Of a DNA stretch of 64,000 nucleotides, positions 14,543 through 57,054 are shown piece by piece. The position numbers and the translations under genes were made by a program. Origin of the DNA: Pantoea trifolii (GTDB taxonomy: Bacteria > Pseudomonadota > Gammaproteobacteria > Enterobacterales > Enterobacteriaceae); NCBI RefSeq assembly GCF_024506435.1, contig NZ_JANIET010000003.1, positions 1 through 64,000 on the forward strand, written 5' to 3'. How positions within the stretch are numbered: position 1 is the first letter of the stretch; every line of letters begins with the position of its first letter. Below the pieces are notes generated by a model that saw only the letters and a list, made by a program, of their open reading frames with translations, was not told the origin of the DNA and did no database searches.

Positions 14543-14629
14543 GTTAATCCTCCGGATAAATAAAGGTCGTACTGCACATTGAGCGTGACTCACCCGCGTC
14601 TGCGCTGTGGTAAACGTGGGTAAACGCAG

Positions 14630-15112: not shown

Positions 15113-15117
15113 CCTGG

Positions 15118-41233: not shown

Positions 41234-41362
41234 ATGCCAATGTTTGGATTGGCGGATGTTAACTCATTTTATGCCAGCTGCGAGGCTCTCTTTCGTCCAG
41301 ACTTACGCGGTAAACCCGTTGTCGTTCTTAGTAATAATGATCTGAGTGGTGAGAAATGTTAG
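41234..41362 (+). pseudogene. umuC: umuC 5' fragment (codons 1-36)
   Basis: The frame starts MPMFGLADVNSFYASCEALF, contains the first catalytic Asp (DVN) of a Y-family polymerase and proceeds to KPVVVLSNND. At 41341/41342 homology ends; the frame continues LSGEKC and stops at 41362. The rest of the gene resumes at 55885 with GCVIARSATAKK. In an intact UmuC the two pieces are contiguous (SNND-GCVIAR). Start is 41234, or 41240 which would give 423 residues after rejoining, against 422 in E. coli UmuC. Confidence 0.92.
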
Positions 41363-41494
41363 TTAATTCTATTCTGTTAAGATAATTTTATTCTTGATGG
41401 TGGGTAACAGAATATCATTCCGACTAACAGCAACTCATTAACACTGACTAAAGCTACCAGGGAATATTGGACAGAAGAGAAATGCACAGGACAA

Positions 41495-41746
41495 ATGCGA
41501 GTATATTATTTGAAACCAAGCGAGATGACTGGTGCCCATAAAGAAGAATCACTCTTTTTTATTAACGCGACAACTCTTCACTTGCTCTTGATGAGAGTTC
41601 AACAATCAGAGTTTGAAAGTAAATACGGTGAAAATAAATCATCAAAATTAAACGAAAGTAAAACAAACCATCCATTTAGAAAGACGATTAAAAATCGTTT
41701 AAATATTGTTTATAATCATTGCTATTTTGTAACATTAAAACATTAA
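41495..41746 (+). CDS. Possible small AT-rich protein
   Basis: An 83-codon frame (MRVYYLKPSEMTGAHKEESL at the start), very AT-rich and Asn/Lys-rich in its second half. AGGA lies close before the ATG. No domain is recognised. It occupies the left end of the island, ahead of the bicupin gene. Could be a decayed fragment. Confidence 0.3.
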   Translation: MRVYYLKPSEMTGAHKEESLFFINATTLHLLLMRVQQSEFESKYGENKSSKLNESKTNHPFRKTIKNRLNIVYNHCYFVTLKH

Positions 41747-41811
41747 GTAATAAACAATTCATCACCAACTTAGACGAGCGGGACTATTCTTAATTTTTAA
41801 GGAGAACCTCA

Positions 41812-42984
41812 ATGTTAACACGTCGTGATATGTTAAAAATGTCTGCCGCCGGGGCAGCAACCATTGGTCTAACTGGTGCCGCTATTAACAACGCAGTGGC
41901 AGGTGATCATCGTAATATAGTTCCGCCTACCACTTATAAGCCGGATAATAATGCTAAAAGCGTCTATAAATACAAATTTTCAGACAGTGAAAAGCGTAGT
42001 CTGCCCGGTGGGTGGGCGCGTGAAGCCACGGTTAATCAATTTCCTATTTCCGAAGGCATATCCGGCGTAGATATGACATTGGAGGCCGGAGCCGTAAGAG
42101 AATTGCATTGGCATGCAATTGCCGCTGAATGGGCTTACATGATTTCCGGCAAGGCCCGCATCACCATTATTGATCCAGAAGGAACGTCAGAAGTTGCCGA
42201 CTTCGGCGAGGGTGACGTCTGGTATTTTCCTAAAGGCTACGGCCATTCTATTCAGGCATTAGATGGCGGCGCCCACTTTATTTTAACGTTTGATAACGGT
42301 CATTTCTCCGAGTTCGGTACATTTAGCATCACTGACTGGATCGCCCACACGCCTAAAGAAGTATTAAGTAAGAGTACAAATTTACCCGCCTCCATCTTTT
42401 CCAAAGCCAAACAGGGTGAAGCTTATATCGTGAACGGTCATGTTCCCCCCGTTCTTCCATTGCCACGAGATAATGGTGGCAGGGATGATTCACCACTTAA
42501 ACACCACTATCCTATGATGAGTGAACCACCATTTTTCGAAAGTGATGAAGGTAGTGTACATATCGTTTCCTCGAAAGAATTCCCTATTTCCCAGACAATT
42601 ACCGGTGTCATTGAGATAATGAAACCTGGTGCAGTAAGAGAGATGCATTGGCATCCAAATGCAAATGAGTGGCAATATTATATTTCGGGCAAAGGGCGAA
42701 TGACAGTTTTCAGCTCGCATGGACACGCCGAAACGGCTGAATATGAGACCACTGATGTTGGCTATGTTCCACAAGGATATGGACATTACATTGAGAATAT
42801 AGGCGATGAGGATCTTAAAGTTTTGGTTGTTCTTGATAATGGCATCTATCAGGATATTTCACTTTCAGATTGGCTGGCGAAAACCCCTGCGTACGTGCTG
42901 GCAGACAATTTTAATAACAATGAAGCCGACTGGAAAAGCAGGCCTGCAGAGAAGCTAGTTATCTCAAAAGGTGCTGTTAAGTAA
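41812..42984 (+). CDS. Tat-exported bicupin, oxalate decarboxylase-like
   Basis: A 390-residue protein with a twin-arginine signal (TRRDMLKMSAAGAATIGLTG) and two cupin domains. Metal-binding motifs are RELHWHAIAAEWAYMISG in the first and REMHWHPNANEWQYYISG in the second (HxH, E), each completed by a later His in YGHSIQAL and YGHYIENI. That is the layout of oxalate decarboxylase/oxidase-type bicupins with Mn. A periplasmic enzyme removing oxalate or a related acid is likely. ATG 41812 follows AAGGAG. A hairpin ends the transcript at 43004-43027. First full gene of the umuC island. Confidence 0.85.
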   Translation: MLTRRDMLKMSAAGAATIGLTGAAINNAVAGDHRNIVPPTTYKPDNNAKSVYKYKFSDSEKRSLPGGWAREATVNQFPISEGISGVDMTLEAGAVRELHWHAIAAEWAYMISGKARITIIDPEGTSEVADFGEGDVWYFPKGYGHSIQALDGGAHFILTFDNGHFSEFGTFSITDWIAHTPKEVLSKSTNLPASIFSKAKQGEAYIVNGHVPPVLPLPRDNGGRDDSPLKHHYPMMSEPPFFESDEGSVHIVSSKEFPISQTITGVIEIMKPGAVREMHWHPNANEWQYYISGKGRMTVFSSHGHAETAEYETTDVGYVPQGYGHYIENIGDEDLKVLVVLDNGIYQDISLSDWLAKTPAYVLADNFNNNEADWKSRPAEKLVISKGAVK

Positions 42985-43003
42985 GATCGTTATTAATCGT
43001 GTA

Positions 43004-43027
43004 ACGGCCCTGCGCATCCAGGGCCGT
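43004..43027 (+). terminator. Hairpin after bicupin gene
   Basis: Perfect 9-bp stem ACGGCCCTG / CAGGGCCGT with a 6-nt loop, 20 bp past the stop. No T-run, so terminator strength is uncertain. Confidence 0.55.
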
Positions 43028-43139
43028 AATAGCGTTCGGGAGAACACTCTGTACACTTCTGACACATAACGGCCCCATATTTAATTGCTGAAAAAAGCAC
43101 GTGACTCAGGGCCTGCTGATATTCTTTAATTTCTAAGTC

Positions 43140-43880
43140 TCAGAACTCTTGACGAGTCGGACGTAGAACAATTTCATTAATATCAACATCTGCCGGTTGT
43201 TCAATGGCAAAAGCGATTGCACGGGCAACAGATGCTGCAGGTATAGCTTGTTTATAAAACGCCAAAACATTTTCTGATGCCGTGCCGGATGTAGAGTATT
43301 TCAGATCACTTTCTACTGCGCCGGGCTCAATTGACGTGACGCGGACCTTATCTCCAACCTCTTGCCTTAAACCTTCTGAAATTGCCCTCACGGCAAATTT
43401 TGTGCCCGAATAGACCGTACCGCCGGGTGCAAATACCTTAATACCTGCGACTGAACTCAGATTAATGATATGCCCACTCTCTTGTGCCAGGAAACGAGGC
43501 AACGCGGCGGCGATACCATAAAGCGTGCCTTTCAAGTTGACATCAATCATGGCGTCCCATTCGTCAGTATTGACCTCTGACATCGGGCGGATAGGCATCA
43601 GACCTGCATTGTTAATGAGAACGTCAAGTCTTCCAAAATCTTTGATAACGGCTGATACTACGGACTCAACTTGATGCTTATCAGTAACATCAAGCGAATA
43701 ACCTCTGACATCCCCACCGGCGCGGGTAATTTCCTCAATGATTTCTTCTGTTTTTGATTGTCTGCGTGCTGCGATTGCAACCTTAGCACCACGACTGGCA
43801 AGGAGCCGAGCAACCTCAGCACCGATCCCTGTATTACCGCCAGTGATTAAAATAACTTTATTTTCAATTCCATTGTTCAT
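43140..43880 (-). CDS. Classical SDR oxidoreductase
   Basis: A 246-residue classical [23 protein letters not shown] at the N-terminus, [13 protein letters not shown], catalytic Ser in [11 protein letters not shown], and Tyr-Lys in [13 protein letters not shown]. It belongs to the YdfG/serine-dehydrogenase-like group ([11 protein letters not shown]). The start at 43880 follows AGGGGC; a longer frame from 43970 overlaps the OYE gene and is unsupported. It is 19 bp after the OYE gene and probably the last gene of the NemR-controlled operon. Confidence 0.88.
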
Positions 43881-43899
43881 GATATGCCCCTTAAATTTT

Positions 43900-45030
43900 T
43901 TAACGCTGCGCGTTGTAAACCGGATAATCAGTAAAACCTTCACCCGTCCCGCCATACAGCGTGGCGGCATTAAGATCGTTAAATGCCCAACCGTTCGCTA
44001 TGCGTTCAGGGAGATCAGGGTTGGCGATAAATGGACGACCAAATGCAATAAGATCGGCCAACTGCTCCTCAACCATCCGGGCACCACGTTCTGCTGTGTA
44101 TCGACCGGCATAGATGATGCGTCCACTAAATTTCGCGCGGATCTCACGGCGGAACGCTTCGGGTAAGTCGGGGGCATTTTCCCAGTCGGCTTCGGCTATA
44201 GACACATAGGCAACACCGGCGTTTTCCAGGATTTTTACCGCTTCGACGTAGGTCTTATGCGGATCACTTTCAACCAGGCCGATATAGACGCGGTCTTCAT
44301 CTGTGCTTGAAAATAAAGGCGTGAAGCGGACGCCCAGACGGTCTGGCCCTATTGCATGAGTGATAGCCTGAACAATTTCATCCAGAAACCGCAGTCGATT
44401 TTCAATAGAACCGCCGTATTCATCCTTACGCTGGTTTGCATGCTCTGAAATGAACTGATTAACCAAATAACCATTCGCAGCATGGATCTCGACCCCGTCA
44501 AAACCTGCACTGATGGCATTTTTCGCCGCCTGGGCATATAAATTCACGAGGTCTTTAATTTCTGACTGGGTCAGTTCGCGAGGAATTGAAGGGGCAACCA
44601 ACGTGCCCGTACCCGGCCCTGTCTCAATAAAAGCCTTTGCTTGTTCAGCCTGAATCGCTGAAGGAGCCACGGGGGCACTTTCTTCTGGTTGCAGTGCGGA
44701 ATGAGAAACGCGTCCCACATGCCAAAGTTGTGCAAAAATAATCCCCCCTTCGGCATGGACCGCGCGGGTCACTTTTTTCCAACCCTCAATGTGTTGCTCA
44801 GTATAAATTCCCGGTGTCCAGGCATAACCTTGTCCACGAGGCTCAATCTGAGTACCTTCCGTGATCATGAAACCTGCACCCGCGCGTTGACGGTAATATT
44901 CGGCCATGAGGTCGGTGGGCACATTACCTGGTTGTTCACTTCTTTGGCGCGTCAGTGGGGGGAATACAATGCGATTTTTAAGGGTATAAGGACCAAGCTG
45001 AGTTGGCTCGAATAAGGCTTTATGATTCAT
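43900..45030 (-). CDS. nemA: Old Yellow Enzyme family reductase, NemA-like
   Basis: A 376-residue FMN reductase of the NemA family: [19 protein letters not shown] at the start, [32 protein letters not shown] with the substrate-binding His-Asn, [17 protein letters not shown], and [19 protein letters not shown]. It reduces N-ethylmaleimide-like electrophiles, quinones and nitro compounds. The start at 45030 (MNHKALF) is the usual N-terminus. It follows a DJ-1-like gene by 71 bp and precedes an SDR gene by 19 bp, and a NemR-type regulator lies upstream, so the symbol nemA is by analogy. Confidence 0.88.
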
Positions 45031-45101
45031 AAGGATTTTCCATGAGTGATCATCGTAAGAGGTGACGGGTGGGCATCCTGTCACCTTCACTTCGTCAACA
45101 G

Positions 45102-45782
45102 TTATGCACCCAGCAGCTTAATCAGCTGGGCTGCTGCTGCTGCCGAGGACGTTGGGTTTTGCCCGGTGATGAGCAAGCCATCGCTGACCACATAAGAACT
45201 CCAGTCCGCCCCTTTCGAGTAAATCCCGCCTTTGGCAATCAGCTCATCTTCTACCAGGAAAGGCACAATCTGCGTCAGGCCCACGGCTTCCTCTTCGCTG
45301 TTCGTAAAACCGGTGACCTTACGGCCTTCTACCAGCGGTTTTCCCTCCGGGGTTTTGACGTGGCGCAGCACGCCAGGCGCATGGCAGACCAGAGCGACGT
45401 GTTTGTTTGCCGCCAGGAAGGCTTCGATAAGGGCGATGGAGTGTTTATCTTCGGCCAGGTCCCACAGAGGGCCGTGACCACCCGGATAAAAAACGGCGTC
45501 GTAATCAGCTTGTGAAACGCTGTCGAGGCGAACCGTTGACGCCAGGTGTGCTGTTGCTTCAGCGTCTGCCTCGAAGCGGTGGGTCTGTTCGGTCTGGAAG
45601 TCAGGCTCATTACTTTTTGGGTCTAACGGCGGGTTACCGCCTTTCGGTGAAGCCAGCGTAATTTCCGCGCCTGCGTCTTCGAAGGCGTAGTAAGGTGCGG
45701 CCAGCTCTTCCAGCCAGAAGCCGGTTTGGCGGCCGGTGTCGCCCAGCTTGTCGTGTGAGGTTAAGACCATCAGAATTTTCAT
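45102..45782 (-). CDS. DJ-1/PfpI (Hsp31-like) protein, copy 1
   Basis: A 226-residue type-1 glutamine-amidotransferase-fold protein: MKILMVLTSHDKLGDTGRQT, then ASPKGGNPPLDPKS, YPGGHGPLWDLAED and the nucleophile elbow VALVCHAPGVL with the catalytic Cys. Hsp31/DJ-1-type members act as glutathione-independent glyoxalases or deglycases on methylglyoxal. Start 45782 has AGGAG seven bases upstream. A NemR-box lies 36 bp upstream. Copy 2 (48821) is identical except for the last few residues (KLLGA here, KQLNA there). First gene of the DJ-1/OYE/SDR operon. Confidence 0.88.
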   Translation of the reverse strand: MKILMVLTSHDKLGDTGRQTGFWLEELAAPYYAFEDAGAEITLASPKGGNPPLDPKSNEPDFQTEQTHRFEADAEATAHLASTVRLDSVSQADYDAVFYPGGHGPLWDLAEDKHSIALIEAFLAANKHVALVCHAPGVLRHVKTPEGKPLVEGRKVTGFTNSEEEAVGLTQIVPFLVEDELIAKGGIYSKGADWSSYVVSDGLLITGQNPTSSAAAAAQLIKLLGA

Positions 45783-45804
45783 CATTACTCTCCTGCATTT
45801 CAAA
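45142..45804. repeat. Duplicated DJ-1 segment, copy 1
   Basis: About 663 bp that appear identical to 48861-49523, in the same orientation and 3719 bp apart. The flanks diverge sharply on the upstream side (AAAATGATAG against AAATCAATAG) and gradually on the downstream side. Confidence 0.85.
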
Positions 45805-45817
45805 ATGATAGTTGGAT

Positions 45818-45832
45818 TAGACCGGTCGTATA
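45818..45832. promoter_or_regulatory. NemR-box before DJ-1 copy 1
   Basis: TAGACCGGTCGTATA, a version of the palindrome TAGAC-N5-GTCTA with one altered base in the right half. The same palindrome is perfect at 46501, 49537 and 49687. Confidence 0.65.
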
Positions 45833-45874
45833 TTAAATGGGTACAGAAACAGCTCTATACTGAGTACCCCCTTG

Positions 45875-46480
45875 CTAGGGGGTAATATGAATAATTTTTC
45901 TTGTCGTGAGCAGCGCTGAATCAAACGGGCCAGTATTTCGAACAATCTTGACCATGACGCTTGCACCGACCCAAAGCTGGTAGAGGCTTTCTGCCACGGT
46001 GCGAGGTGTATCGTCAATAGTGAGAGACCCCTCGGCTACGCCCGTTTCTAACGCTTCCGCCAAACGCGAGATTATCCCTGAAGTGCCTGCCTCTAGCGTT
46101 AAGCGCATCGTGTCCGAAAGATCGGCAACTTCAGCGCCTAATTTCACGGCAAGGCACTTCCCTTGACACTCAGAGAACGACTGAGATTCACGCCACTGCT
46201 GCCAGTAGTTCATCAGCCGCTGAGCCATATTGAGACCTGGCTGGCCCAGTGTCCTGTCGATATCGGCGAGATAATCATCAAAATAGTGTGCCAGCATGTC
46301 TGCGCCAAAAGCTTCTTTCGAACTAAAGTAATGATAGAAAGAGCCTTTAGGCACACCAGCATCTTTGAGTATTTCGTTCAATCCGACCGCAGAAAATCCT
46401 TTACCCGCCATAATACGCTGGCCTGTCGCCAGAATATGCTCGCGGATTTCATTGCTATGTAGTTGAGTTGTCGTATTCAT
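45875..46480 (-). CDS. nemR: NemR-like TetR-family redox-sensing repressor
   Basis: A 201-residue TetR-type regulator that aligns with E. coli NemR: HTH near VGLNEILKDAGVPKGSFYHYF (in outline), followed by the sensor region GKCLAVKLGAEVADLS. Cys109 corresponds to NemR Cys106 and Lys178 (VMVKIVR) to NemR Lys175; this Cys-Lys pair forms the reversible bond by which NemR senses reactive chlorine. NemR also senses N-ethylmaleimide, quinones and methylglyoxal. A perfect TAGAC-N5-GTCTA palindrome lies 21 bp before the start, which fits autorepression. Neighbouring OYE and DJ-1 genes are the expected regulon. Confidence 0.85.
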   Translation of the reverse strand: MNTTTQLHSNEIREHILATGQRIMAGKGFSAVGLNEILKDAGVPKGSFYHYFSSKEAFGADMLAHYFDDYLADIDRTLGQPGLNMAQRLMNYWQQWRESQSFSECQGKCLAVKLGAEVADLSDTMRLTLEAGTSGIISRLAEALETGVAEGSLTIDDTPRTVAESLYQLWVGASVMVKIVRNTGPFDSALLTTRKIIHITP

Positions 46481-46500
46481 ATGTTTAATTTACCAAGAAC

Positions 46501-46515
46501 TAGACCAGTCGTCTA
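46501..46515. promoter_or_regulatory. NemR-box before the nemR-like gene
   Basis: TAGACCAGTCGTCTA, a perfect 5-bp-arm palindrome 21 bp upstream of the nemR-like start codon; it would autoregulate the repressor. Confidence 0.75.
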
Positions 46516-46549
46516 TAGGCAAGCTAAAACTATTCCATTTTGCTAGAGC

Positions 46550-46810
46550 TTATTTGTAGATTTCAGCAGTACCGTACAGATGGTTATCGCCACCGGCTGA
46601 AATAATACGGTAAGACGTTGCGCCATGTTCAGTCGCTTTCGCCGCCAGTTTGTCCTGCAGGTCGCTCAAATTGCTTCCAACAGCTGAAGCGTTGATCACT
46701 CCAATACTTTGCCCCTTCACAGGCACAGCGTTGACTTCGGTCGCGGCAAAAGTGGCAAAAGAAGCGGCAGTCAGTACGATTACAGCAAAGGCTTTAGTTA
46801 CGTTTTTCAT
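46550..46810 (-). CDS. DUF1471 (BhsA/YhcN-like) periplasmic stress protein
   Basis: An 86-residue protein with a Sec signal (KAFAVIVLTAASFATFAATE) and a DUF1471 domain ending GGDNHLYGTAEIYK. Members of this family are induced by hypochlorite, peroxide, copper or acid; one (RclB) belongs to the E. coli reactive-chlorine operon. ATG 46810 follows GAGGA. It lies upstream of the nemR-like gene on the same strand, but has no NemR-box in its own promoter region. Confidence 0.85.
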   Translation of the reverse strand: MKNVTKAFAVIVLTAASFATFAATEVNAVPVKGQSIGVINASAVGSNLSDLQDKLAAKATEHGATSYRIISAGGDNHLYGTAEIYK

Positions 46811-46953
46811 GATCATATCCTCATTAAATTATTTTTAAGCACACGTTAAGCGTGGGCAAGGGGGTATATTTTTAGGCACTGAATTCATTTTAAAAATTCG
46901 CTCAATGCCTGGGAAACGGGTATAAATGGGGACCCTGTATGTCCCTTATCGCA

Positions 46954-47775
46954 TTACTCTTCAATGAATCGCAGCAGGTCTTCATTAATCGTCCCGGCTT
47001 GGGTGATTGTCATCCCGTGGCCAAATCCTGCATAGACCTTGAGCTGCGCATCTTTGACAAGTTGCGCGGACAGAATGGCAGAGTCGGCCAGCGGAACGAT
47101 CTGATCGTCATCACCATGCATGATCAGGGTTGGCACATCGATTTTCTTAAGGTCATCAGTGAAATCAACCTCTGAGAACTGTTTGATACAGTCATATTGA
47201 CCTTTGATCCCACCCCGCATGCCCTGAAGCCAGAAGCTTTCTCTCACACCATCAGAAGGCGTCTCTGACGAACGGTTATAGTTAAAAAACGGCGTGGTCA
47301 AATCCTTGTAGAACTGAGAACGGTCTTTTTCGACCGCAGCACGGATGCCATCAAACACTTCCATAGGCAGACCGCCAGGATTTTTCTCACTTTGCAGCAT
47401 AACGGGAGGTACTGCGCCGATAAGTACTGCTTTGCTGACGCGCGCCGAGCCATACGTACCGATATAGCGTGCGACTTCACCACCGCCGGTCGAATGTCCA
47501 ACCAGAACAACGTCTTTGAGATCTAACTGCTCGATGAGTGATGATAAATCTTCAGCGTAGGTATCCATATCATTGCCGTCCCACGTCTGACTCGAGTTGC
47601 CATGGCTGCGGCGGTCGTGAGCGATGACACGGAACCCCTGCTGACCGAAGAACAACATTTGCGCGTCCCATGCATCACTTGATAATGGCCAGCCGTGGGA
47701 GAAAATAATGGTTTGTCCCTTGCCAAAGTCTTTATATGCAATCTTAGAACCGTCTTTCACCTGAATAGTTTTCAT
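46954..47775 (-). CDS. Alpha/beta hydrolase, cofactor-free haloperoxidase-like
   Basis: A 273-residue alpha/beta hydrolase of the non-heme chloroperoxidase/esterase group. [12 protein letters not shown] near residue 26 is the oxyanion loop, [13 protein letters not shown] the nucleophile elbow, [11 protein letters not shown] carries the acid and [10 protein letters not shown] the His. Members are perhydrolases or aryl esterases; many are found with oxidative-stress genes. It is a single gene, with the start at 47775 ([18 protein letters not shown]). Confidence 0.87.
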
Positions 47776-47865
47776 TTCTTTATTCTCTTTTCTGTTGGCG
47801 ACGCCTCATGGGCGGCGCATTTGATTTAAAAGTATTTTTCTTCGTATATTGATTTTTACACTGGG

Positions 47866-47886
47866 CAGTCATTGAAAGAATGACTG
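47866..47886 (-). terminator. Hairpin after secreted hydrolase gene
   Basis: Perfect 8-bp stem CAGTCATT / AATGACTG with a 5-nt loop, 25 bp past the stop at 47911 on the minus strand. No strong T-run. Confidence 0.45.
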
Positions 47887-47910
47887 GCCTAGAAAGCATT
47901 TAACTGATGT

Positions 47911-48666
47911 TTACTGAGATAAGCTTTGTGCCGCTTTTTCGATCACCGCCGCAATTTTTTCTGGCTGTGATGCGTAAATGGCATGGTTGCCTTTCAATTC
48001 AGTGACGGTGCTGTGCGCACGTTTAGCCATGAAGCGCTCCAGTTCTGGATTAATAGCACGATCCTGCGTCGCCACGACGGCCCAGCTAGGCTTCGTTTTC
48101 CATGCCGGAACGCCTGCCGGGGCAGTGAATGCTGCTACTGCAGGCATGAGTTGAGATTGCGCCAACAGATTTGTTTCTTTGACGGGCAAGTCAGCGGCAA
48201 AGTCCGCGTGGAAATTTTCAGGTTTGATATAAAGGAAGTGATCTGGCGTTTCAGTAATTGACTGAGCAGCCGGCGGATACTTTTTGGCCAGACTCAGCAA
48301 TGAATCACCTTGCTCCGGCTGGAACGCTGCGATGTAAACCAGACCTGCAACAGAGGGGTCATTTCCCGCGTCACTGATGATCATTCCGGCGTAGCTATGG
48401 CCAACCAGCAGTGATTTACCACTTTGTAATGCCAGAACGCGTCGAGTCGCAGCGACATCATCAGCCAGCGAGGTTTGCGGCTCCTGAACAATCGACACTT
48501 TGTAGCCAGCTTTATTCAGAATGCGAGCCACCGGATCCCAACCTGAGCCATCAACAAAAGCACCATGTACCAGAACGATGTTTTTTACCGGCGCAGCCAT
48601 TGAAGACTGAGCATAAACAGACAGAACCAGGCTTAAAGCCAGAGTAGTAAACGATTTTTTAAACAT
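47911..48666 (-). CDS. Secreted alpha/beta hydrolase
   Basis: A 251-residue hydrolase with a signal peptide (TLALSLVLSVYAQSSMAAP). LVHGAFVDGSGWDPVARIL, LLVGHSYAGMIISDAG with the catalytic Ser, and NHAIYASQPEKIA with the His place it in the MES/salicylate-esterase-like group of alpha/beta hydrolases. It probably acts in the periplasm on a small ester. Start 48666 has a weak AAGGAAA-type ribosome site. It is between the haloperoxidase-like gene and DJ-1 copy 2. Confidence 0.83.
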   Translation of the reverse strand: MFKKSFTTLALSLVLSVYAQSSMAAPVKNIVLVHGAFVDGSGWDPVARILNKAGYKVSIVQEPQTSLADDVAATRRVLALQSGKSLLVGHSYAGMIISDAGNDPSVAGLVYIAAFQPEQGDSLLSLAKKYPPAAQSITETPDHFLYIKPENFHADFAADLPVKETNLLAQSQLMPAVAAFTAPAGVPAWKTKPSWAVVATQDRAINPELERFMAKRAHSTVTELKGNHAIYASQPEKIAAVIEKAAQSLSQ

Positions 48667-48820
48667 GATTAATTTCCTTCAATTGTCATTTTTTAAGTTA
48701 ATACCCTGACATCATGGCTCCCTGCCTTACAGGCCAGCGGACGGACATTCAGGTGTGTAATGTTGTCTAGATTTGCTGTGTGGGGGTGCTTAAAGAGCTG
48801 CTTACCCACGTGATTAACCG

Positions 48821-49501: not shown

Positions 49502-49523
49502 CATTACTCTCCTGCATTTCAAA
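48861..49523. repeat. Duplicated DJ-1 segment, copy 2
   Basis: Partner of 45142-45804; the two appear identical over about 663 bp in direct orientation, so they could recombine and delete the 3.7 kb in between. Confidence 0.85.
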
Positions 49524-49536
49524 TCAATAGCTGAAT

Positions 49537-49551
49537 TAGACCAGTCGTCTA
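49537..49551. promoter_or_regulatory. NemR-box before DJ-1 copy 2
   Basis: TAGACCAGTCGTCTA, identical to the box at 46501 and placed 36 bp upstream of the DJ-1 copy 2 start, the same spacing as in copy 1. Confidence 0.75.
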
Positions 49552-49686
49552 ATGCGTTCTTAAATAAAAATGTGTTTACCCGTGCCTACTATTCCGGCCA
49601 ACTCTGCGTGCTGTTTCATTCTACCGGAACGGCTGTCGTGCTATGTCGCCTGGTCGCCGTTGCCATGTGTGTAAGCTAACTCATAA

Positions 49687-49701
49687 TAGACTGGTCGTCT
49701 A
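49687..49701. promoter_or_regulatory. Second upstream NemR-box
   Basis: TAGACTGGTCGTCTA, a perfect-arm palindrome 136 bp beyond the previous box, in the otherwise empty gap 49552-49832. It may be a distal operator or a relic of another NemR-controlled gene. Confidence 0.6.
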
Positions 49702-49832
49702 CAGATAATTAATAAAACTCTTCATCTTTTTCATCTCAGGACACTTTGTCATAGCGGATGCCTGTCACGATGAAGTAAGCCACAAATTTTAAAGCTTATT
49801 CAACTGCGTCCTTTTACTTATCGATGATGCAC

Positions 49833-51248
49833 TTAGTCAACTTTCTTTGCCCAAACTGCCTGAGCATTTGTGAATTCACGCAGGCCAAAGTGGGAGAGCT
49901 CGCGACCATACCCACTCTTTTTCACCCCGCCAACCGGGATGCGTGCATTCGTGGCAGAAAATCCGTTGATGAATACGCCTCCTGTTTCTAAGCGCCGCGC
50001 GATTCGCTGGGCACGAGAAACATCACTGGTCCAAAGGTTGCCCCCTAAGCCGTAATCGCTGATATTTGCCAGCTCAATGGCATGCTCAACGTCATCTGCG
50101 ACAGTAATAGTTGCTACAGGGCCGAAGGTTTCCTCATCAAATGCAGCCATTCCCGGACCGACTTCACCCAATACGGTAGGCTCATAGAAGTTGCCAGGGC
50201 CCGCGATTTTATTCCCCCCAAGAAGACGTGTCGCGCCGGCTGCGAGAGTTCGTTCTACTTGATGATGTAATTCTTCACGCAAATCTTTTCGCGCCATGGG
50301 CCCGATCCTATTTTGCGGGTCCAGCGGATCGCCAACCTTCAACTGTCTGACGGCCGCGATGAATTTTTGTGTAAATTCCTCCGCGATGGGTTTTTCCAAA
50401 ATAAACCGTTTCGCGGCTAAGCACACCTGGCCCGCATTTTGGAATCGCGCTTCAACACCCGCTGTAACAGCCAAATCAATATTGGCGTCAGCGAGCACGA
50501 TAAATGCGTCTGATCCACCCAGCTCAAGCAAGCTTTTTTTCAATGCTTTGCCTGCAATCGCCGATACGGAAGACCCCGCCCGCATACTCCCCGTCAGTGT
50601 CACTGCGGCAATGCGATCATCCTCAATCACCTCTGCAACAGTTTCGTTATCAGCAATAAGATTGGCGAATAAACCTTTAGGGAAGCCTGCACTCTCATAA
50701 GCATCCTGCAAAGCATAGGCAGAGCCCATCACATTGGGCGCGTGCTTGAGGATAAAACCGTTACCCGACAGCATAATCGGGCCCGAAGCGCGAATGACCT
50801 GCCATAAAGGGAAGTTCCAGGGCATGACGGCCAAAATAGATCCAATCGGCAGATAGGAGACATGTACCTGATCGTCATTTTCGACAGAAACAGGCTCATC
50901 TGCGAGGATTGCCGGGCCATTGCTGGCAATCCAATCAATAGTCACTGCACACTTCTCAACTTCAGCGCGGGCAGCAGCGAGGGTTTTTCCCATTTCAGCG
51001 GTGATGATCCCTGCCAAAATTTCTGAACGCTCGCGCAGAATCGCGGATAAACGACGATAAGCTTCTACGCGTTTCGACATGGGAGTAGCACGCCAAAGGC
51101 GAAAAGCCGCGTTATTATCCGCCAGCATACCTTCTACTTCGTCTGCAGTTTGGAATGCATAAGTCGCGATCAACTCGTCCGTCGCAGGATTACGCGAGGT
51201 CGCGACATCAAGAGAAAGCGTATTCTGTGTGACAGGTTGGGATGACAT
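49833..51248 (-). CDS. NAD(P)-dependent aldehyde dehydrogenase (succinate-semialdehyde dehydrogenase type)
   Basis: A 471-residue ALDH. MPWNFPLWQVIRASGPIML is the cofactor/oxyanion region, LELGGSDAFIVL holds the general-base Glu and NAGQVCLAAKRFI the catalytic Cys; the C-terminus has EETFGPVATI and NISDYGLGGNLWTSD. The subfamily includes Sad/GabD-like enzymes. It oxidises an aldehyde to the acid, completing aldehyde detoxification on the island. It lies 99 bp downstream of the XRE/MmyB regulator gene on the same strand, which may control it. Confidence 0.87.
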   Translation of the reverse strand: MSSQPVTQNTLSLDVATSRNPATDELIATYAFQTADEVEGMLADNNAAFRLWRATPMSKRVEAYRRLSAILRERSEILAGIITAEMGKTLAAARAEVEKCAVTIDWIASNGPAILADEPVSVENDDQVHVSYLPIGSILAVMPWNFPLWQVIRASGPIMLSGNGFILKHAPNVMGSAYALQDAYESAGFPKGLFANLIADNETVAEVIEDDRIAAVTLTGSMRAGSSVSAIAGKALKKSLLELGGSDAFIVLADANIDLAVTAGVEARFQNAGQVCLAAKRFILEKPIAEEFTQKFIAAVRQLKVGDPLDPQNRIGPMARKDLREELHHQVERTLAAGATRLLGGNKIAGPGNFYEPTVLGEVGPGMAAFDEETFGPVATITVADDVEHAIELANISDYGLGGNLWTSDVSRAQRIARRLETGGVFINGFSATNARIPVGGVKKSGYGRELSHFGLREFTNAQAVWAKKVD

Positions 51249-51347
51249 AGTTTTTGCCTCATAAACGGTTTAAGAGAAGCACGTTGTGTGCTTCGATAAA
51301 ATCCAGTTTAGGCAGGTCGAATCATCCCTGGAAGGCGTCTTGTTATC

Positions 51348-52160
51348 CTATGACTGGGAGTCACAGGCAACGTGCCGGGGAATATAGGTCACCAGAGAGA
51401 GGTCGGGTCTCCCCTCTGGCGTGAGTGCAACGTAGGTAAATTCTATATGCCCAGAAGTGGGATGCAAAAGCCGCTTGCTCCCCTCTCCCATGCCTTTCAC
51501 TTCCGTATCCAGCCACCACTCCTTGAATTCCGGGCTTTTTTCAGAAAGTTCTTCAATGAGATGGTCAAAAGGCTTTTTGTCCTGAGCATGGGCGCGTGAC
51601 GCGCGGAAAACGGAGATCATCCCTCGGGCCATCAGCTCCCAATCCAGGATCTGCGTGCGATATGGACGATATAGAAACAGCAGTCGCAACGTATTACGCT
51701 CATGAGGTTCCAGCGATCCATAATCGATGAACAAATCAGCAATAGCATCATTCCAGGCGAGAATATCAAGTCGGGCATTTCTCACATATGCCGGAATGGG
51801 ATCGATAGCGCGCACTAAACTTTTCAGGCCATCACTCACACCATCCGCGAGGGGATGGGGTACCGGCTCTTCGCGCGGTGAAAGAGCAAAAAGATGGGAT
51901 GATTCAATTCTGTTCAGTTTAAGAACTTTGGCTATACGCTGGAGTGCATCTGCCGAAGGTTTAATCTCTCTCCCCTGCTCAAGCCAGGTATACCAGCTCA
52001 CACTGACTCCAGCCAGGACGGCGACTTCCTCACGACGTAAACCGGGTGTACGGCGAGCACCCTGTTGCATGCCGAAGTCCTGAGGATTAAGTCGTGCGCG
52101 CCGGCTTACTAAGAAAGCACCAAGTTCACGACGCTGCTCTGACGTGGTTTTTTTAACCAT
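51348..52160 (-). CDS. XRE/MmyB-type transcriptional regulator
   Basis: A 270-residue regulator with an N-terminal XRE HTH (LRREEVAVLAGVSVSWYTWL) and a C-terminal MmyB-like PAS-type ligand-binding domain (AYVRNARLDILAWNDAIADL; ends with VTYIPRHVAC). The start at 52160 (MVKKTTSEQ) is preferred to one at 52205. The family frequently sits next to short-chain dehydrogenases or aldehyde dehydrogenases; here the ALDH gene follows directly. The ligand is unknown, fatty-acid-like molecules having been proposed for the MmyB fold. Confidence 0.85.
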   Translation of the reverse strand: MVKKTTSEQRRELGAFLVSRRARLNPQDFGMQQGARRTPGLRREEVAVLAGVSVSWYTWLEQGREIKPSADALQRIAKVLKLNRIESSHLFALSPREEPVPHPLADGVSDGLKSLVRAIDPIPAYVRNARLDILAWNDAIADLFIDYGSLEPHERNTLRLLFLYRPYRTQILDWELMARGMISVFRASRAHAQDKKPFDHLIEELSEKSPEFKEWWLDTEVKGMGEGSKRLLHPTSGHIEFTYVALTPEGRPDLSLVTYIPRHVACDSQS

Positions 52161-52280
52161 AATAGTCTGCCTGTAAATTTGTCTCTTTGGCCAACGCTTC
52201 ATCAAGATGCGGATGAATTTCTTATTTTTTCATCTGAACCCTATGCTCAAGGTACAATTTATGCAAAAAATCCTTCATTT

Positions 52281-52305
52281 CCGTGGCTAACATTGGTAGC
52301 CACGG
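52281..52305 (-). terminator. Hairpin between hydrolase and XRE genes
   Basis: Perfect 9-bp stem CCGTGGCTA / TAGCCACGG, 7-nt loop, about 85 bp past the hydrolase stop on the minus strand. It also marks the boundary where the DNA becomes visibly richer in G+C. Confidence 0.5.
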
Positions 52306-52388
52306 GAGTAGAGAACTGTATCCGACTGAAATTGCCTTTCTATCAAAGAGGCAAGAATGCATTGGTACTTCATCTTTCTATATTCGCG

Positions 52389-53339
52389 CTAACGGTGGGT
52401 TACTGCCAACTGACGCGTGAAAAAGTGGTCGAGGTGATCCACCGCCTGATCGACGTACTCCGGGACGTCGTACATCTGATAATGGCGTGCGCCTGCGATT
52501 TCAAGGACCGGCTGAGCAGCTCGAACCAACCCAGCGAGTCGGTAACCATCTTCAAAAGAGCCGGTTGTCCCCGCAGAGTTTCCTGCAACGATAACTTGCA
52601 CCGGCTGTGTGAGCAGGATTTCCGCCAGATGGAAAGCATCGAAGCCAAGAATTAACGCATCACTCAAGTAATGGCGGCGATTAGTGGAGTTTGCGTGTTG
52701 TCCGCGCTCGGTTCGGTAGTAAGTGATAGCCTGCAGCATATCGATGTCCGCTATACCCGCTGCCTTGGCCTCGGCCAGCGTATCAGGGATCCATTGATGC
52801 AGTACCGGCGCAGCGCCGTGGGCTTCGTCTATCGCTTGCGCTGCTATGGTTTCCAGGAGACGGTTGAGGCCATCATCAGCTGCAACCATTTTTCGAAAAG
52901 CACTGCCGATATCGCTGGGTACCACGACCCCCAAGGCCTTTACGCGATGGTCTATCATCGTTCCGGCTGCTGCGTAACCGCCGCCGGCGCAAACGCCCAG
53001 CATGCCAATACGCCCGTCGTCAACCTGGTTCTGCCTAATCAGGAAATCGACGGCAGCGCGCAGATCGGCGATACGGGCCGCCGGACTTTCCAGATCACGT
53101 GGCTGGCCGGAACTCGCACCTTGATAGGCAGGGTCGAACGTTAGAACGATGAATCCCCGTGCTGCCAGCGCGCGCGCGTAGTTGGCGGCGATCTGTTCCT
53201 TAACGCTGCTACCCGGCCCGGTGATGACAAGCGCGGGATAGCGCTTCAAGGGATCCCCTGGGGGAGGCATGTACAGGTCGGCGGCGATGGCAAAAGTGTC
53301 ACGCGCAAAGGTGGTGGACCGGCATTGGACAGTGTTCAT
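52389..53339 (-). CDS. Alpha/beta hydrolase of the dienelactone-hydrolase/YcjY-like group
   Basis: A 316-residue hydrolase. The nucleophile elbow reads MLGVCAGGGYAA, with Cys where many esterases have Ser, as in dienelactone hydrolases and YcjY-like proteins. FDPAYQGASSGQPRDLESPA and the late AGARHYQMYDVPEYVDQAVD (with the His) support the family. Start 53339 (MNTVQCRS) is preferred to a long upstream frame. It is divergent from a MarR gene (110-bp gap) and has a higher G+C content than genes to its left. Confidence 0.83.
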   Translation of the reverse strand: MNTVQCRSTTFARDTFAIAADLYMPPPGDPLKRYPALVITGPGSSVKEQIAANYARALAARGFIVLTFDPAYQGASSGQPRDLESPAARIADLRAAVDFLIRQNQVDDGRIGMLGVCAGGGYAAAGTMIDHRVKALGVVVPSDIGSAFRKMVAADDGLNRLLETIAAQAIDEAHGAAPVLHQWIPDTLAEAKAAGIADIDMLQAITYYRTERGQHANSTNRRHYLSDALILGFDAFHLAEILLTQPVQVIVAGNSAGTTGSFEDGYRLAGLVRAAQPVLEIAGARHYQMYDVPEYVDQAVDHLDHFFTRQLAVTHR

Positions 53340-53375
53340 AGTGGTGTTTCCCAAGTAAAATACTATTGAAGATAA

Positions 53376-53429
53376 TATAGTACAATATGGAACTAGAATA
53401 TGTATAAACAATCTCAGTCATGTACTATA
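53376..53429. promoter_or_regulatory. Divergent promoter with inverted repeat (hydrolase/MarR)
   Basis: TATAGTACA (53376-53384) and TGTACTATA (53421-53429) are perfect 9-bp complements in the hydrolase-MarR gap. They are candidate half-sites for the MarR regulator. Confidence 0.5.
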
Positions 53430-53449
53430 AGTAAGTACGGGCGGAATGG

Positions 53450-53851
53450 ATGAGCGATGCTGCAAACATCTGGGCTCTGAACCACCGTGTACTTGGCCTC
53501 GTTATGAACGAATGCGCCGAACAACTTGCGTCGCTCAGGCTGGAAACGAAGGAATTTTTTGTACTTGGCGAAATTGAGCCGTGCCGCTATCCGGCCGAAC
53601 TTGCCAAACGTTTGATGTTGCCAAAGGCCAGCGTGACAGTTTATTTGCGCAACTTGGTTGCAAAAAAATTCGTTCGACGCGAGATCGATGAGGGAGACCT
53701 GCGCCGACACCGATTGGTGCTAACTTCAGAAGGCAGACGCACACTCGACGCAGCAACGTTGGCGCTGTCTTCAAGCTTCGAGAAGCGCCTGACGCGACTG
53801 AAGGCGCAGGAACGGGCTGAACTAGAACGTCTACTTTCAAAACTTGTGTGA
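53450..53851 (+). CDS. MarR-family transcriptional regulator
   Basis: A 133-residue winged-helix protein: CRYPAELAKRLMLPKASVTV is the recognition region, EIDEGDLRRHRLVLTSEGRR the wing, flanked by dimerisation helices. It is divergent from the alpha/beta hydrolase gene and shares a promoter region with a 9-bp inverted repeat. G+C-rich like its partner, suggesting that the pair arrived together from a different source. Confidence 0.82.
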   Translation: MSDAANIWALNHRVLGLVMNECAEQLASLRLETKEFFVLGEIEPCRYPAELAKRLMLPKASVTVYLRNLVAKKFVRREIDEGDLRRHRLVLTSEGRRTLDAATLALSSSFEKRLTRLKAQERAELERLLSKLV

Positions 53852-53901
53852 CAGAAGCCCGCCGTTGGCTGAGTGAATAAATGGGTCAACTCGTAGTTGA
53901 C

Positions 53902-54074
53902 CTGCTCTTCGGTGAATCGTGACTTTTTCATGGGCACCTCTCTTTTGAATCATCTTAAAATAACTCTGAGGCGTCATTTAAACCGGTAGATATTCAGTTA
54001 GTTGTGTCACACCTAACACCAGAAAATCTTCATCTAATTCAAATCCATCTGGGCAAATTCAGTGTGCCACTACA
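53902..54074 (-). pseudogene. IS3-family end remnant with orfA start
   Basis: On the minus strand ATG 53931 reads MKKSRFTEEQ, the N-terminus of many IS3-family (IS407-type) OrfA proteins, then homology ends. At 54049-54074 the bases GGGCAAATTCAGTGTGCC ACTACA match the right end of the complete IS3 element at 30083-30108 in 24 of 26 positions. The two may derive from different elements. The remnant abuts the HxlR gene, whose stop codon lies inside it. Confidence 0.65.
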
Positions 54075-54429
54075 CTCGCGCATCGTAGCTACGCTGGTGA
54101 TCCTGAATGGTGTTCGTGTTCTTGACTGTCCAGTCGAACAGTATCGAAAACGGTTCCTGTAATGACTGCCCGAGCGGCGTCAATGCATACTCGACGCCGA
54201 GCACGCGGCCATCCAACACCTTGCGAGTAACCATGCCGTTACGCTCCAGCTTACGCAGCGTCTGCGTCAGCACGCGTTGGGTGACGCCATCGAGGCGGCG
54301 CTTGATAGCATTGAATCGACGGGGCTCTCGCAATACCGTCAGCACCATCATCGACCATTTATCAGCGATCTGGTCGAGGATCACACGACTTGGGCAGTCG
54401 GCGCGGTAGATAGGGTCGGTCTCAAACAT
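54070..54429 (-). CDS. HxlR-family transcriptional regulator
   Basis: A 119-residue winged-helix protein of the HxlR type: YRADCPSRVILDQIADKWSM at the N-terminus with the conserved Cys12, then RFNAIKRRLDGVTQRVLTQT and RKVLDGRVLGVEYALTPLG. Some HxlR proteins (e.g. HypR) use this Cys to sense quinones or hypochlorite. It is divergent from the enoyl-CoA hydratase gene (102-bp gap), its likely target. The stop codon lies within the IS3-type end at 54049-54074, so the native C-terminus may have been trimmed. Confidence 0.85.
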   Translation of the reverse strand: MFETDPIYRADCPSRVILDQIADKWSMMVLTVLREPRRFNAIKRRLDGVTQRVLTQTLRKLERNGMVTRKVLDGRVLGVEYALTPLGQSLQEPFSILFDWTVKNTNTIQDHQRSYDARV

Positions 54430-54531
54430 TGGTATTCTCCGGCATCCTTAGGATGCTTAAGGTGCGTAATTGACGCCAAGTATCTAAATAGCACCATGAG
54501 CCTGATAGTCTACCCAACCAAGGAAACCGAA

Positions 54532-55365
54532 ATGCCCGATACCGAGTACAGCAGGCTTCACATTTCCCGCGCCAATGGCGTGGCGACGATCACGATCGAC
54601 AGCCCGCCGGTCAACGTTCTCGACGCCGTTTTAATGCGCGAGATGCGCTGCTTCCTTTTTTCCGTTCGCGCCGATGAAAGCACTAAAGTGCTTGTATTCC
54701 AGAGTGCGGATCCAGAGTATTTCATCGCCCACGTAGACATGACATTAATCGATGACCCGCACGCCTTCGACGAATTTGTTCGCCAAGCTCCAGCAGGTCT
54801 CAATCCGTTCCAGGCGTTCGGGGAACTGCTGCGTGAGCAGCCGCGGGTCACCATCGTCAAGCTCACTGGAGTGGCGAGGGGGGGCGGGGCTGAATTCGTC
54901 TCGGCGGCCGACATGGTATTCGCCTCAGAAGGACGGGCGGGACTTGCCCAATGCGAGGCGTTGATGGGCATCATACCAGGAGGCGGCGCCACGCAGTATT
55001 TGTCTGCCAGGATGACGCGCGGTCGCATGCTTGAGGTGATTCTGGGCGCCGATGTCATCAATGCGACCACAGCAGAGCGTTATGGATGGATTAACCGGGC
55101 TTTGCCTGCAGCGGAACTCGACGGGTTCGTTGATCGGCTCGCGCGAAACATCGCTGCGTTGCCCGAAGGCGTTATTGCTGCGGCCAAGCAGGCCGTGCCC
55201 CTGGCAGACTTGCGCGAAGGCTTTCTTCGTGAGAACGACCTTTGGGCCAGTCTGTTCGCCCGTCCCGCCGCCGAAAAACTCGTTCGCGGCGCGCTCAAGG
55301 CAGACGCGCAGACAAAAGACGGCGAAAGGAATCTGGAGGATTTACTTCGCCGACTGGACCTGTAG
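54532..55365 (+). CDS. Enoyl-CoA hydratase/isomerase family protein
   Basis: A 277-residue crotonase-fold protein: VATITIDSPPVNVLDAVLM at the start, the oxyanion-hole region GVARGGGAEFVSAADMVF and ALMGIIPGGGATQYLSARM. The C-terminal helix (NDLWASLFARPAAEKLVRGA) is normal. Catalytic acid/base residues are not conserved clearly, so hydratase activity is uncertain. ATG 54532 follows AAGGAAAC. It is divergent from the HxlR gene. G+C-rich, in contrast to the flanking plasmid DNA. Confidence 0.82.
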   Translation: MPDTEYSRLHISRANGVATITIDSPPVNVLDAVLMREMRCFLFSVRADESTKVLVFQSADPEYFIAHVDMTLIDDPHAFDEFVRQAPAGLNPFQAFGELLREQPRVTIVKLTGVARGGGAEFVSAADMVFASEGRAGLAQCEALMGIIPGGGATQYLSARMTRGRMLEVILGADVINATTAERYGWINRALPAAELDGFVDRLARNIAALPEGVIAAAKQAVPLADLREGFLRENDLWASLFARPAAEKLVRGALKADAQTKDGERNLEDLLRRLDL

Positions 55366-55507
55366 ATATGCCACGTCTGCAACTGAACCCGCCCCTCTTG
55401 AGAAACCGAGTTTTACAGGCGCGTTAAAAGCGATTTGCAGAATGAATGCCCAAAGAATCGATCAGCTTACTCGACGATAAGAAGGTGGTTTCCATAAGGT
55501 TGCTACT

Positions 55508-55563
55508 CCCCCCCAACACCTAACCTCTGCTTTATACTATAAGCAAACGTTAGGTGTTGGGGG
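55508..55563. repeat. Long perfect inverted repeat (hairpin)
   Basis: CCCCCAACACCTAAC (55510-55524) and GTTAGGTGTTGGGGG (55549-55563) are perfect 15-bp complements around a 24-nt loop that itself has a TGCTT/AAGCA stem. The ACCTAAC and GTTAGGT ends fit the inverse-core and core consensus of attC sites, but the whole is shorter than known attC. Could also be a terminator or an element end. Confidence 0.6.
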
Positions 55564-55695
55564 TTACGCCTGTCAGAGGATTGATGAAAGGATTCAATGT
55601 GCTGGCGTCGAAGCACGACACTCGCCCTTACTTAGGCCATAAAAAGCTTGTCGAATGTCTCAGGGCGTGAAGCGGACATTTACATATTTGTTCCA

Positions 55696-55721
55696 GTGGC
55701 CAAATTTAGTGCACCACTACA
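55696..55721. mobile_element. Isolated IS3-type right end
   Basis: GTGGCCAAATTTAGTGCACC then ACTACA matches the right end of the complete element at 30083-30108 in 23 of 26 positions. No transposase sequence is adjacent. Confidence 0.6.
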
Positions 55722-55884
55722 CTAACGTCGGGGGTGTACTAATCAAAATGGAACAGGTCAGTCAACCCTGCTAGCTTAAGTAAGCCACCGAGACCAAACA
55801 CATAGAAAGAGTTAGCAATTAAATAGTGATTAAAATCAGATTGTTATATATAACTAACTGTTAGCGTAATTCAGATATAACGAT

Positions 55885-57054
55885 GGATGTGTTATCGCCC
55901 GAAGTGCCACAGCAAAAAAATACGTCAAAATGGGCGCACCGTGGTTTCAGATTAAGGCGCAAGAATACCCCGAAAAGATTTATGTTTTCAGTAGCAACTA
56001 TGCCCTTTACCACTCGATGTCTCAGCGTGTAATGACCGCTCTTGAAGAGATCACACCAAGGGTTGAGCAATACAGTATTGATGAAATGTTTCTGGATCTG
56101 ACGGGCATAGACGGGTGCGAAAACTTTGAAGATTTCGGCCGACGTCTGCGTAAACACGTACTTGAAACTACGGGACTAACCGTAGGCGTGGGTATGGGCC
56201 CCACAAAAACACTGGCCAAATCGGCTCAATGGGCAAGTAAAGAGTGGAAACAATTCCGTGGAGTACTGGCGCTAACGCCCAGCAATCCAAAGCGCACCAC
56301 TACTCTTCTTGAAAATCAGCCTGTTGAGGAGATTTGGGGAGTTGGCCGGCGAATTGCTAAAAGACTAAACCTGCTGGGGATTGAAACCGCGCTCCATCTC
56401 TCACGCGCTCATCCTAAATTCATCCGTGACAACTTCAGCGTTGTTCTGGAGAGTACTGTGCGAGAGCTTAACGGCGAATCCTGCATACCCTTAGAAGAGC
56501 TTCCTCCAGCCAAGCAGCAAATCGTTTGTAGTCGTAGCTTCGGTGAACGCATCACAACGAAGTTTGCCATGCAGCAAGCACTTTGCCAGTACGCAACGCG
56601 TGCAGCAGAAAAACTACGCGGTGAACGTCAATACTGTAGCCATGTCAGCATGTTCATTCAAACGTCACCCCATGCACACAATGAGATCTACTATGGCAAC
56701 ACTGCAGGTATGAAGCTTTCGCTTCCTACGCAAGATACCAGAGAGATCATTGATGTTGCGATGAAGTCCCTTGATCAAATCTGGCTTGAAGGAAAAAGGT
56801 ATATGAAAGCCGGCGTCATGCTCGATGATTTTACGCCTAATGGAGTGAGCCAGTTGAATCTGTTCGATGAAAATCAACCTCGGCCCAACAGCGAAAAGCT
56901 CATGAAGGTTCTGGATGGTATCAACCAGTCCGGACTTGGCAATGTGTGGTTTGCTGGTCAGGGTGTCGATACAGAGTGGAAAATGAAACGTGAATTGTTG
57001 AGTAACGCCTGGACTACCAACTGGAACGAGATCCCTGTAGCCAGAGTGTATTAG
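55885..57054 (+). pseudogene. umuC: umuC 3' fragment (389 codons)
   Basis: Starts GCVIARSATAKKYVKMGAPW in the frame of umuC immediately after the island and runs to a normal stop. It has the Y-family palm motif YSIDEMFLDLTG with the second and third catalytic acids, VGVGMGPTKTLAKSAQWAS, the helix-hairpin-helix WGVGRRIAKRLNLLG and the beta-clamp motif QLNLFDE. With the 36 codons at 41234 it restores a UmuC of 425 residues. An internal ATG at 55930 could allow translation, but without the first catalytic Asp the product could not polymerise. Confidence 0.92.

Follow-up and report, generated by a model that had tools for sequence, protein, structure and literature searches.

How a block of 14.5 kb came to lie within the plasmid-borne umuC gene of Pantoea trifolii, with both halves of the gene kept whole, is the question raised by contig NZ_JANIET010000003.1 of assembly GCF_024506435.1. 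The stretch analyzed here, referred to as the window, comprises the first 64 kb (64,000 nucleotides) of this contig (C3, 123,763 bp), one of three in a genome of 5.06 Mb. The block has ends like those of the elements named SEs in PMC10214605 (cited here, like PMC4458695 and PMC8547460, from part of its text), where the SE core has the gene order intA-tfp-intB-srap and Srap shows a weak likeness to TetR. None of these four genes was found in the block, which is very probably a non-autonomous relative of the SEs that entered umuC by site-specific recombination.

The original prediction had proposed a comparison with an uninterrupted umuC, and this is supplied by G028, a genome of the same genus in which umuDC lacks the insert and has the same right-hand neighborhood as in the window. 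The locus and the boundaries of the element are as follows.

40686 to 40701, + strand: LexA-box-like sequence CTGTACATATAAACAG, 5' of umuD, following the LexA-box consensus CTGTN8ACAG
40782 to 41231, + strand: umuD, 149 codons, divergent allele (DNA identity of 78% to G028 and 80% to Pantoea BRR-3P)
41234 to 41341, + strand: 5' fragment of umuC, codons 1 to 36, divergent allele (81% to G028)
41334 to 41339, + strand: left 6-bp spacer ATAATG, the same as in the empty site of G028
41340 to 55876, + strand: the element in full, 14,537 bp, with none of the SE core genes found
41340 to 41400, + strand: conserved left end (motif C), 61 bp with 88.5% identity to the autonomous element of CP052287
55769 to 55876, + strand: conserved right (motif C') end, terminating in TTCAGAT, 70 to 80% identical to 9 of 10 other elements compared
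55877 to 55882, + strand: right 6-bp spacer ATAACG, unlike the left one
55885 to 57054, + strand: 3' fragment of umuC, codons 37 to 425 and stop

Compared separately with the intact 425-residue UmuC of G028, the two pieces of the protein are 97% (residues 1 to 36) and 96% (residues 35 to 425) identical, and together they cover residues 1 to 425, showing that no codon was lost. The split after codon 36 (41341), the in-frame resumption at codon 37 (55885), and the complete 425 residues described earlier are thus upheld. The AAYGAT said to be shared by the flanks occurs as AATGAT and AACGAT, and is more exactly described as two 6-bp spacers, ATAATG and ATAACG. An assembly error is unlikely, given that other genomes and plasmids have the same ends at this codon.

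Read inwards, the element has ATCTGAGTGGTGAGAAATGTTAGTTA at its left end and, after reversal, ATCTGAATTACGCTAACAGTTAGTTA at its right end. Aligned without gaps, these form a 26-bp imperfect inverted repeat with 18 of 26 positions identical (p = 1.5e-5, 200,000 shuffles). Two features of SEs are therefore found here, namely, imperfect inverted-repeat ends C and C' and a 6-bp spacer between C and C', with attB split between both flanks. An end-pattern scan of 23 sequences (the window and 22 fetched loci, numbered with L), to which L098 was added separately, gave 12 distinct two-ended elements, those of the window, L060, L062, L070, L071, L072, L073, L075, L081, L084, L085, and L098. L062 and L064 are one plasmid, and one element is found in both L083 and L084; these pairs were each counted once. 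Outside the 12 stand L065 to L069, L078, and L082 (only the left end within the stretch), L074 (only the right end), and L079 and L080 (BLAST match to the left end, neither end by pattern). Each of the 12, the window element included, has the spacer AYAAYG on either side, as retrieved with a pattern that required nearly such a spacer. In a BLAST comparison of the window element with 10 others, which left out L098, matches were confined to the first 29 to 62 bp and the last 74 to 108 bp (no left-end row for L060, no row at either end for L084), the exception being 37 bp in common with an insertion sequence (IS) in L075.

The same terminal sequences are present in three loci of the genus with an insert at codon 36/37, those of the window, G007, and G014. 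A pattern scan within the genus picked out 4 of 61 genomes, of which G000 and G014 are true, G060 does not concern umuC, and G012 has a codon substitution; the true insertion of G007 was missed by this pattern and recovered by tblastn. A stricter left-end pattern found six stretches in the genome contig set (genome_contigs), including the G007 plasmid. In PLSDB, the left 60-bp junction matched 38 of 72,556 records (E of 0.1) and the right 201 bp matched 95 records (E of 0.01), numbers that count redundant plasmids and not independent events. The left interior (41342 to 41811), sought in 198 family genomes, retrieved its own copy and only 10 short matches of about 30 to 55 bp. Insertions at the same codon, which had been suggested as something to look for on other plasmids, are therefore present both among the PLSDB junction matches and among the fetched loci, and the claim that umuC is an integration site holds, in agreement with PMC4458695 and PMC8547460.

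Some occupants of codon 36/37 carry recombinases of their own. Five loci, Klebsiella pneumoniae CP052287 and CP052288 (L085 and L078), Providencia rettgeri (L083 and L084), and Citrobacter freundii (L098), share one gene order after the 5' fragment of umuC: first comes a tyrosine recombinase, then a larger protein without a name and another tyrosine recombinase, and last a small protein with a TetR annotation. The second and fourth proteins of this operon in L084 have no Pfam match, the annotated intB is short in L085 and L078 although its reading frame is open along its length, and IntA of L098 is 85% identical to that of L084. All four SE genes are also found in P. rwandensis (L065), where the same left end lies in umuC some 70 bp away, and the first of them is present in Silvania (L067), with an IntB located in the same genome. 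UmuC stops at the left end after residue 36 in all seven (L085, L078, L083, L084, L098, L065, and L067). We assign these recombinase operons to the SE type on the grounds of gene order, ends, and spacer.

Eight SE-type proteins from L084 and L085 gave no tblastn match in the window at an E of 1e-3. At this threshold, three of the 12 two-ended elements have all four genes (L084, L085, and L098), one has a remnant of IntA, and eight have none; the four genes of L098 were taken from annotation, this locus being absent from the tblastn with SE proteins and from the repeat measurement. The remnant, in L073 (Rahnella), consists of the first 37 residues of IntA only, beside the left end.

Elements without recombinase genes can nevertheless be traced from one umuC to another. 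The elements of L072 and L075 are of the same type, with 99.96% identity across 2,781 bp, no difference in the last 156 bp, and an additional IS3-like sequence of 1,235 bp (judged by its open reading frames) between the matching parts in L075. Their flanks are far less alike, at 67.6% identity over 327 columns on the left and 77.4% over 733 columns on the right, and identity falls at the spacers. This comparison of sequences shows that the recombinase-less element moved as a unit between two umuC alleles. Three occupied loci could be paired with empty sites (L072 with L102, L075 with L103, and L085 with L104), with 500 of 500 bp on the left and 800 of 800 bp on the right identical. In all three the left spacer equals that of the target and the right spacer differs (left/right ACAACG/ATAACG, ACAATG/ACAACG, and ATAACG/ACAACG). 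In L086, another plasmid with an empty site, 2 of the 800 bases on the right are unlike those of L072, and umuC is unannotated in L102. Target-site duplication would make both spacers equal. Recombinase-less elements look to enter umuC by an SE-type route, because the left spacer is that of the target and the right one differs. According to PMC10214605, integration of an SE puts the six central bp of the target beside motif C, whereas the spacer brought by the circle comes to lie beside C'.

For the window element, we propose insertion at codon 36/37 by site-specific recombination around the 6-bp spacer AYAAYG. IntA, Tfp, IntB, and Srap would presumably be supplied by an autonomous element located elsewhere, and the window element would itself move by SE-type recombination. 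Its spacers, ATAATG on the left and ATAACG on the right, have ATAATG as their counterpart in the nearest empty site, that of the diverged G028. Spacers are unlike in 8 of the 12 two-ended elements.

The unequal spacers also bear on a composite or IS-borne insertion of the kind seen with resistance DNA in rumB of SXT/R391 elements. A fragment at about 55597 to 55690 would fit such an event, its match being to DNA that one listed record annotates as an IS110-family transposase. A target duplication, however, would be identical on both sides, no transposase gene was found among the scanned open reading frames of the element or at its ends, and the ends match SE-type elements. We rejected this explanation as very improbable.

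Several results weigh against a mobile SE relative. The eight SE-type proteins have no match in the window element even at an E of 1, and with none of the four genes it falls outside a gene-based definition of SEs. IntB, the only one of the four proteins used for the genome-wide helper search, had 0 matches in the whole genome of the window and was positive in two of seven other genomes, so no helper is seen now. A plasmid-borne copy rescued a CDS4 (srap) mutant and not intA or intB mutants in PMC10214605, which speaks against easy action in trans. An empty site identical to the umuC allele of the window was not found. Four of the 12 elements (L062, L070, L081, and L098) have two equal spacers, an outcome that is neutral either way. 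The left-end pattern had 0 matches in viral contigs, and the 66-bp left junction of L085 had none in 20,395 E. coli records. Among 394 genomes of the order, the strict right-end pattern occurred in 1, that of the window itself; either the site is seldom occupied among species representatives or this pattern is too strict.

Another explanation is a decayed SE, which had its own recombinases on arrival, lost them later by deletion or replacement with cargo, and has been a fixed relic since. Such loss happens, as the 37-residue remnant in L073 illustrates, a Hafnia SE with disrupted intB is mentioned in PMC10214605, and the lack of an IntB match in the window genome would suit a relic. Yet the window element retains no trace of IntA, Tfp, IntB, or Srap at the most permissive threshold, the eight elements without any of the genes are equally traceless at an E of 1e-3, and the L072/L075 element moved when it was already recombinase-less. 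Decay in place is an unlikely account, and we retain entry as a non-autonomous element.

A third explanation arises from the umuC gene itself, which is a mosaic. DNA identity between the window and G028 is 78.2% in umuD, 81.5% in codons 1 to 36, 77.7% in codons 37 to 78, and 95.4% in codons 79 to 425, while G028 and BRR-3P are 97.1% identical in umuD, 98.3% in codons 1 to 78, and 96.6% in codons 79 to 425. The change of allele falls in the following interval.

56004 to 56076, + strand: allele-switch interval in umuC, containing a second insertion site at 56009 (codon 78/79)

The island could have arrived by homologous recombination between umuC alleles, its SE-like ends being mere passengers and no site-specific event having taken place here. 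The mosaic, with umuD and codons 1 to 78 at 78 to 81% and codons 79 to 425 at 95% identity to G028/BRR-3P, means that at least one exchange took umuC DNA including the island. The switch, however, is away from the edges of the island, and the ends of the window element coincide with those of unrelated elements. Homologous recombination could account for the arrival of the segment on the plasmid but not for the first entry of the element into umuC, and as a full explanation it is possible though doubtful. Under site-specific entry, the divergent segment of umuD and umuC codons 1 to 78, together with the element, would have been joined, later or simultaneously, to codons 79 to 425 of the resident plasmid umuC. 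The concern that the two pieces of umuC come from different alleles is thus borne out in part. Two alleles do meet in this gene, at codon 78/79 and about 125 bp to the right of the island; a meeting at the island itself was rejected, codons 1 to 36 and 37 to 78 being about equally far from G028. The donor of the divergent segment of umuD and codons 1 to 36 was sought in 195 other family genomes, with a best long match of 76% (shorter pieces are higher, e.g., 86% over 107 bp), and in PLSDB in near mode, with a best match of 74.8%; the closest measured is BRR-3P, at about 80%.

In BRR-3P, the element that interrupts umuC, at the position corresponding to 56009, carries two tyrosine recombinases, 327 and 705 amino acids long, and its genes are those given in PMC4458695 for an island at "position 88." Elements at codon 78/79 with recombinases of about 327 and 705 amino acids occur in L004 (at 8001), L076, L050, L051, L054, L055, and L058, and are likely the "position 88" island of that paper. 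Neither recombinase has a match in the window, where the allele switch alone lies at this site. The coincidence is suggestive only, given a 72-bp interval that makes up about 6% of umuC; allele exchange through the second site is possible, with ordinary recombination as the alternative. Both sites are used in the chromosome of G014 (L060), where one umuC is cut twice, by an insert of 2.7 kb at codon 36 and another of about 7 kb at codon 78. P. vagans FBS135 (L082, 15909 to 18306) has two 5' pieces of umuC separated by about 2 kb; the first bears the codon 36 left end, and the second extends to codon 77 and has part of a site 78 recombinase beside it. In L007, L008, L010, L011, and L012, a second 3' part of umuC (from residue 73 to 80, approximately, to 424) follows about 30 to 55 bp after the first, as if spare 3' halves were carried or left by elements.

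The two-ended elements range from 1.1 to 23.6 kb and differ in cargo. According to annotation or hidden Markov model (HMM) matches, L070 carries a microcin B17-type cluster and an exonuclease, L071 arsenic resistance, L072 a gene pair matching OloB and partially OloA, L073 an SMC/RecF-type ATPase, and L081 a glutathione S-transferase. The element of L062 holds little besides what we take to be IS1-like sequence. The 2.9-kb recombinase-less element with the Olokun-like pair (OloB, 4.8e-81; OloA, partial) is present in L072, L075, and L069, and the L072-type left flank with the first element bases is found at 100% identity in 15 PLSDB records from Klebsiella, Raoultella, and Enterobacter. In P. 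agglomerans HJS002 (L062), positions 10082 to 16198 correspond at 84% identity to DNA of the arsenic cargo of L071 (Mixta) and lie outside the codon 36 element of that strain, between two copies of umuD.

Codon 36/37 is probably a shared docking slot, at which cargo blocks that have SE ends but no recombinase genes (with detoxification, arsenic, microcin, Olokun-like defense, SMC-type ATPase, or glutathione S-transferase genes) would be swapped by the recombinases of a few autonomous SEs. On balance we also favor swaps that cross plasmids and genera, a cassette economy like that of integrons, set in an SOS polymerase gene and run by an enzyme from another element.

The cargo of the window element, assigned by Pfam unless stated otherwise, is as follows.

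41812 to 42984, + strand: double-cupin protein, with a TAT-signal match slightly under the curated cutoff
43140 to 43970, - strand: short-chain dehydrogenase, start uncertain
43900 to 45090, - strand: Old Yellow Enzyme family (alkene reductase), also by Rahnella annotation
45102 to 45803, - strand: DJ-1/PfpI family, copy 1
45875 to 46480, - strand: TetR-family regulator
46550 to 46816, - strand: YdgH/BhsA/McbA-like protein
46954 to 47775, - strand: alpha/beta hydrolase
47911 to 48666, - strand: alpha/beta hydrolase
48821 to 49522, - strand: DJ-1/PfpI family, copy 2, assigned by repeat identity to the copy 1 region
49833 to 51248, - strand: aldehyde dehydrogenase, succinate-semialdehyde type according to Rahnella annotation
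51348 to 52205, - strand: helix-turn-helix regulator with MmyB-like ligand-binding domain
52389 to 53411, - strand: alpha/beta hydrolase (peptidase S15-like)
53450 to 53851, + strand: MarR-family regulator
54070 to 54429, - strand: HxlR-family regulator
54277 to 55365, + strand: enoyl-CoA hydratase/isomerase, start uncertain

With three alpha/beta hydrolases and four regulators among these families, the cargo plausibly serves electrophile/aldehyde detoxification, in line with the detoxification cargo of the original prediction, and "oxidant defense" appears a reasonable label. The DJ-1 gene is doubled by a direct repeat of 736 bp (45097 to 45832 and 48816 to 49551, 98% identical). Positions 43815 to 52280 match a Rahnella aquatilis plasmid at 95% identity in three pieces with equal gene order, indicating that the cluster occurs elsewhere too; there, one DJ-1 copy is annotated, and no umuC is annotated within 20 kb around. 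The cupin protein has no match in viral contigs. Expression of cargo driven by the SOS response was proposed for a umuC island in PMC4458695, an idea that is weak for the window element, as most of its cargo genes are oriented opposite to umuC. It had also been suggested that the host trades polymerase V for this cargo and that umuD is left orphaned. The trade is contradicted by the chromosome of the same genome, which keeps umuDC with umuC open over 425 residues (UmuC 55% identical to that of the plasmid, adjoining UmuD match 47%), and with these genes, as predicted from sequence, the plasmid umuD need not be an orphan. Elsewhere in the window, positions 1 to 39000 hold, judging from the translations, many LysR/MFS/reductase-like and transposase-like open reading frames, perhaps similar cargo outside umuC, and the sole Rfam match is an IS1222 frameshifting element at 62227 to 62341.

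A stress island in Pantoea umuC at this codon (PMC4458695) and umuC as a place of int-int units of about 15 kb (PMC8547460) are already in print. What looks new is the kind of element, SE-ended yet recombinase-less, of which no description was found in searches of the open-access PubMed Central literature. If the proposed reading is true, SE recombinases mobilize DNA well beyond the elements in which they are encoded, and the window type offers a test of SE recombination in trans, a matter that the complementation in PMC10214605 left unsettled. Surveys based on tfp or srap would then miss many occupants (9 of the 12 elements lack the full set, in a convenience sample that is no census). The ends and spacer would provide a sequence rule for finding such blocks and their boundaries, and the reading would help account for the repeated reports of umuC as an insertion hot spot.

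The element can be placed among known systems by its target, its ends, and its genes. Insertion into rumB of SXT/R391 elements is of the ISCR2 type. The analogy drawn earlier with these elements stands as to a umuC-type gene being the target and is looser than the nearer precedents, the ICEPanBD442 island and the SEs. IMEX-type elements are integrase-less, have dif-like ends, and borrow XerC/XerD of the host. The window element would resemble them in taking recombinases from others and differs in that its ends are common to elements encoding their own recombinases; the existence of such elements led us to set a host XerCD reading aside. The tmexCD1-toprJ1 units of about 15 kb, with umuC as their integration hot spot (PMC8547460), share the target and differ in having two integrase genes and a resistance pump; PMC10214605 assigns the tmexCD-toprJ unit to the SEs. 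The island of ICEPanBD442, about 13.7 kb of stress genes in a Pantoea umuC "after position 37" (PMC4458695), shares the insertion codon, given that the window junction is at codons 36/37 and the numbering of the paper may differ by one. Its cargo (KatN, YciEFG, and YdeP) is different, in a comparison by description with a source that gives no termini or spacers. From the SEs of PMC10214605 the window element differs in lacking all four defining genes, no recombinase-less SE is described in the part of that source consulted, and the term "non-autonomous" occurs 0 times in its text. It is like them in its imperfect inverted-repeat ends, in its 6-bp spacer, and in the spacer behavior of its siblings, and members with two tyrosine recombinases and tfp- and srap-like genes occupy the very same codon of umuC.

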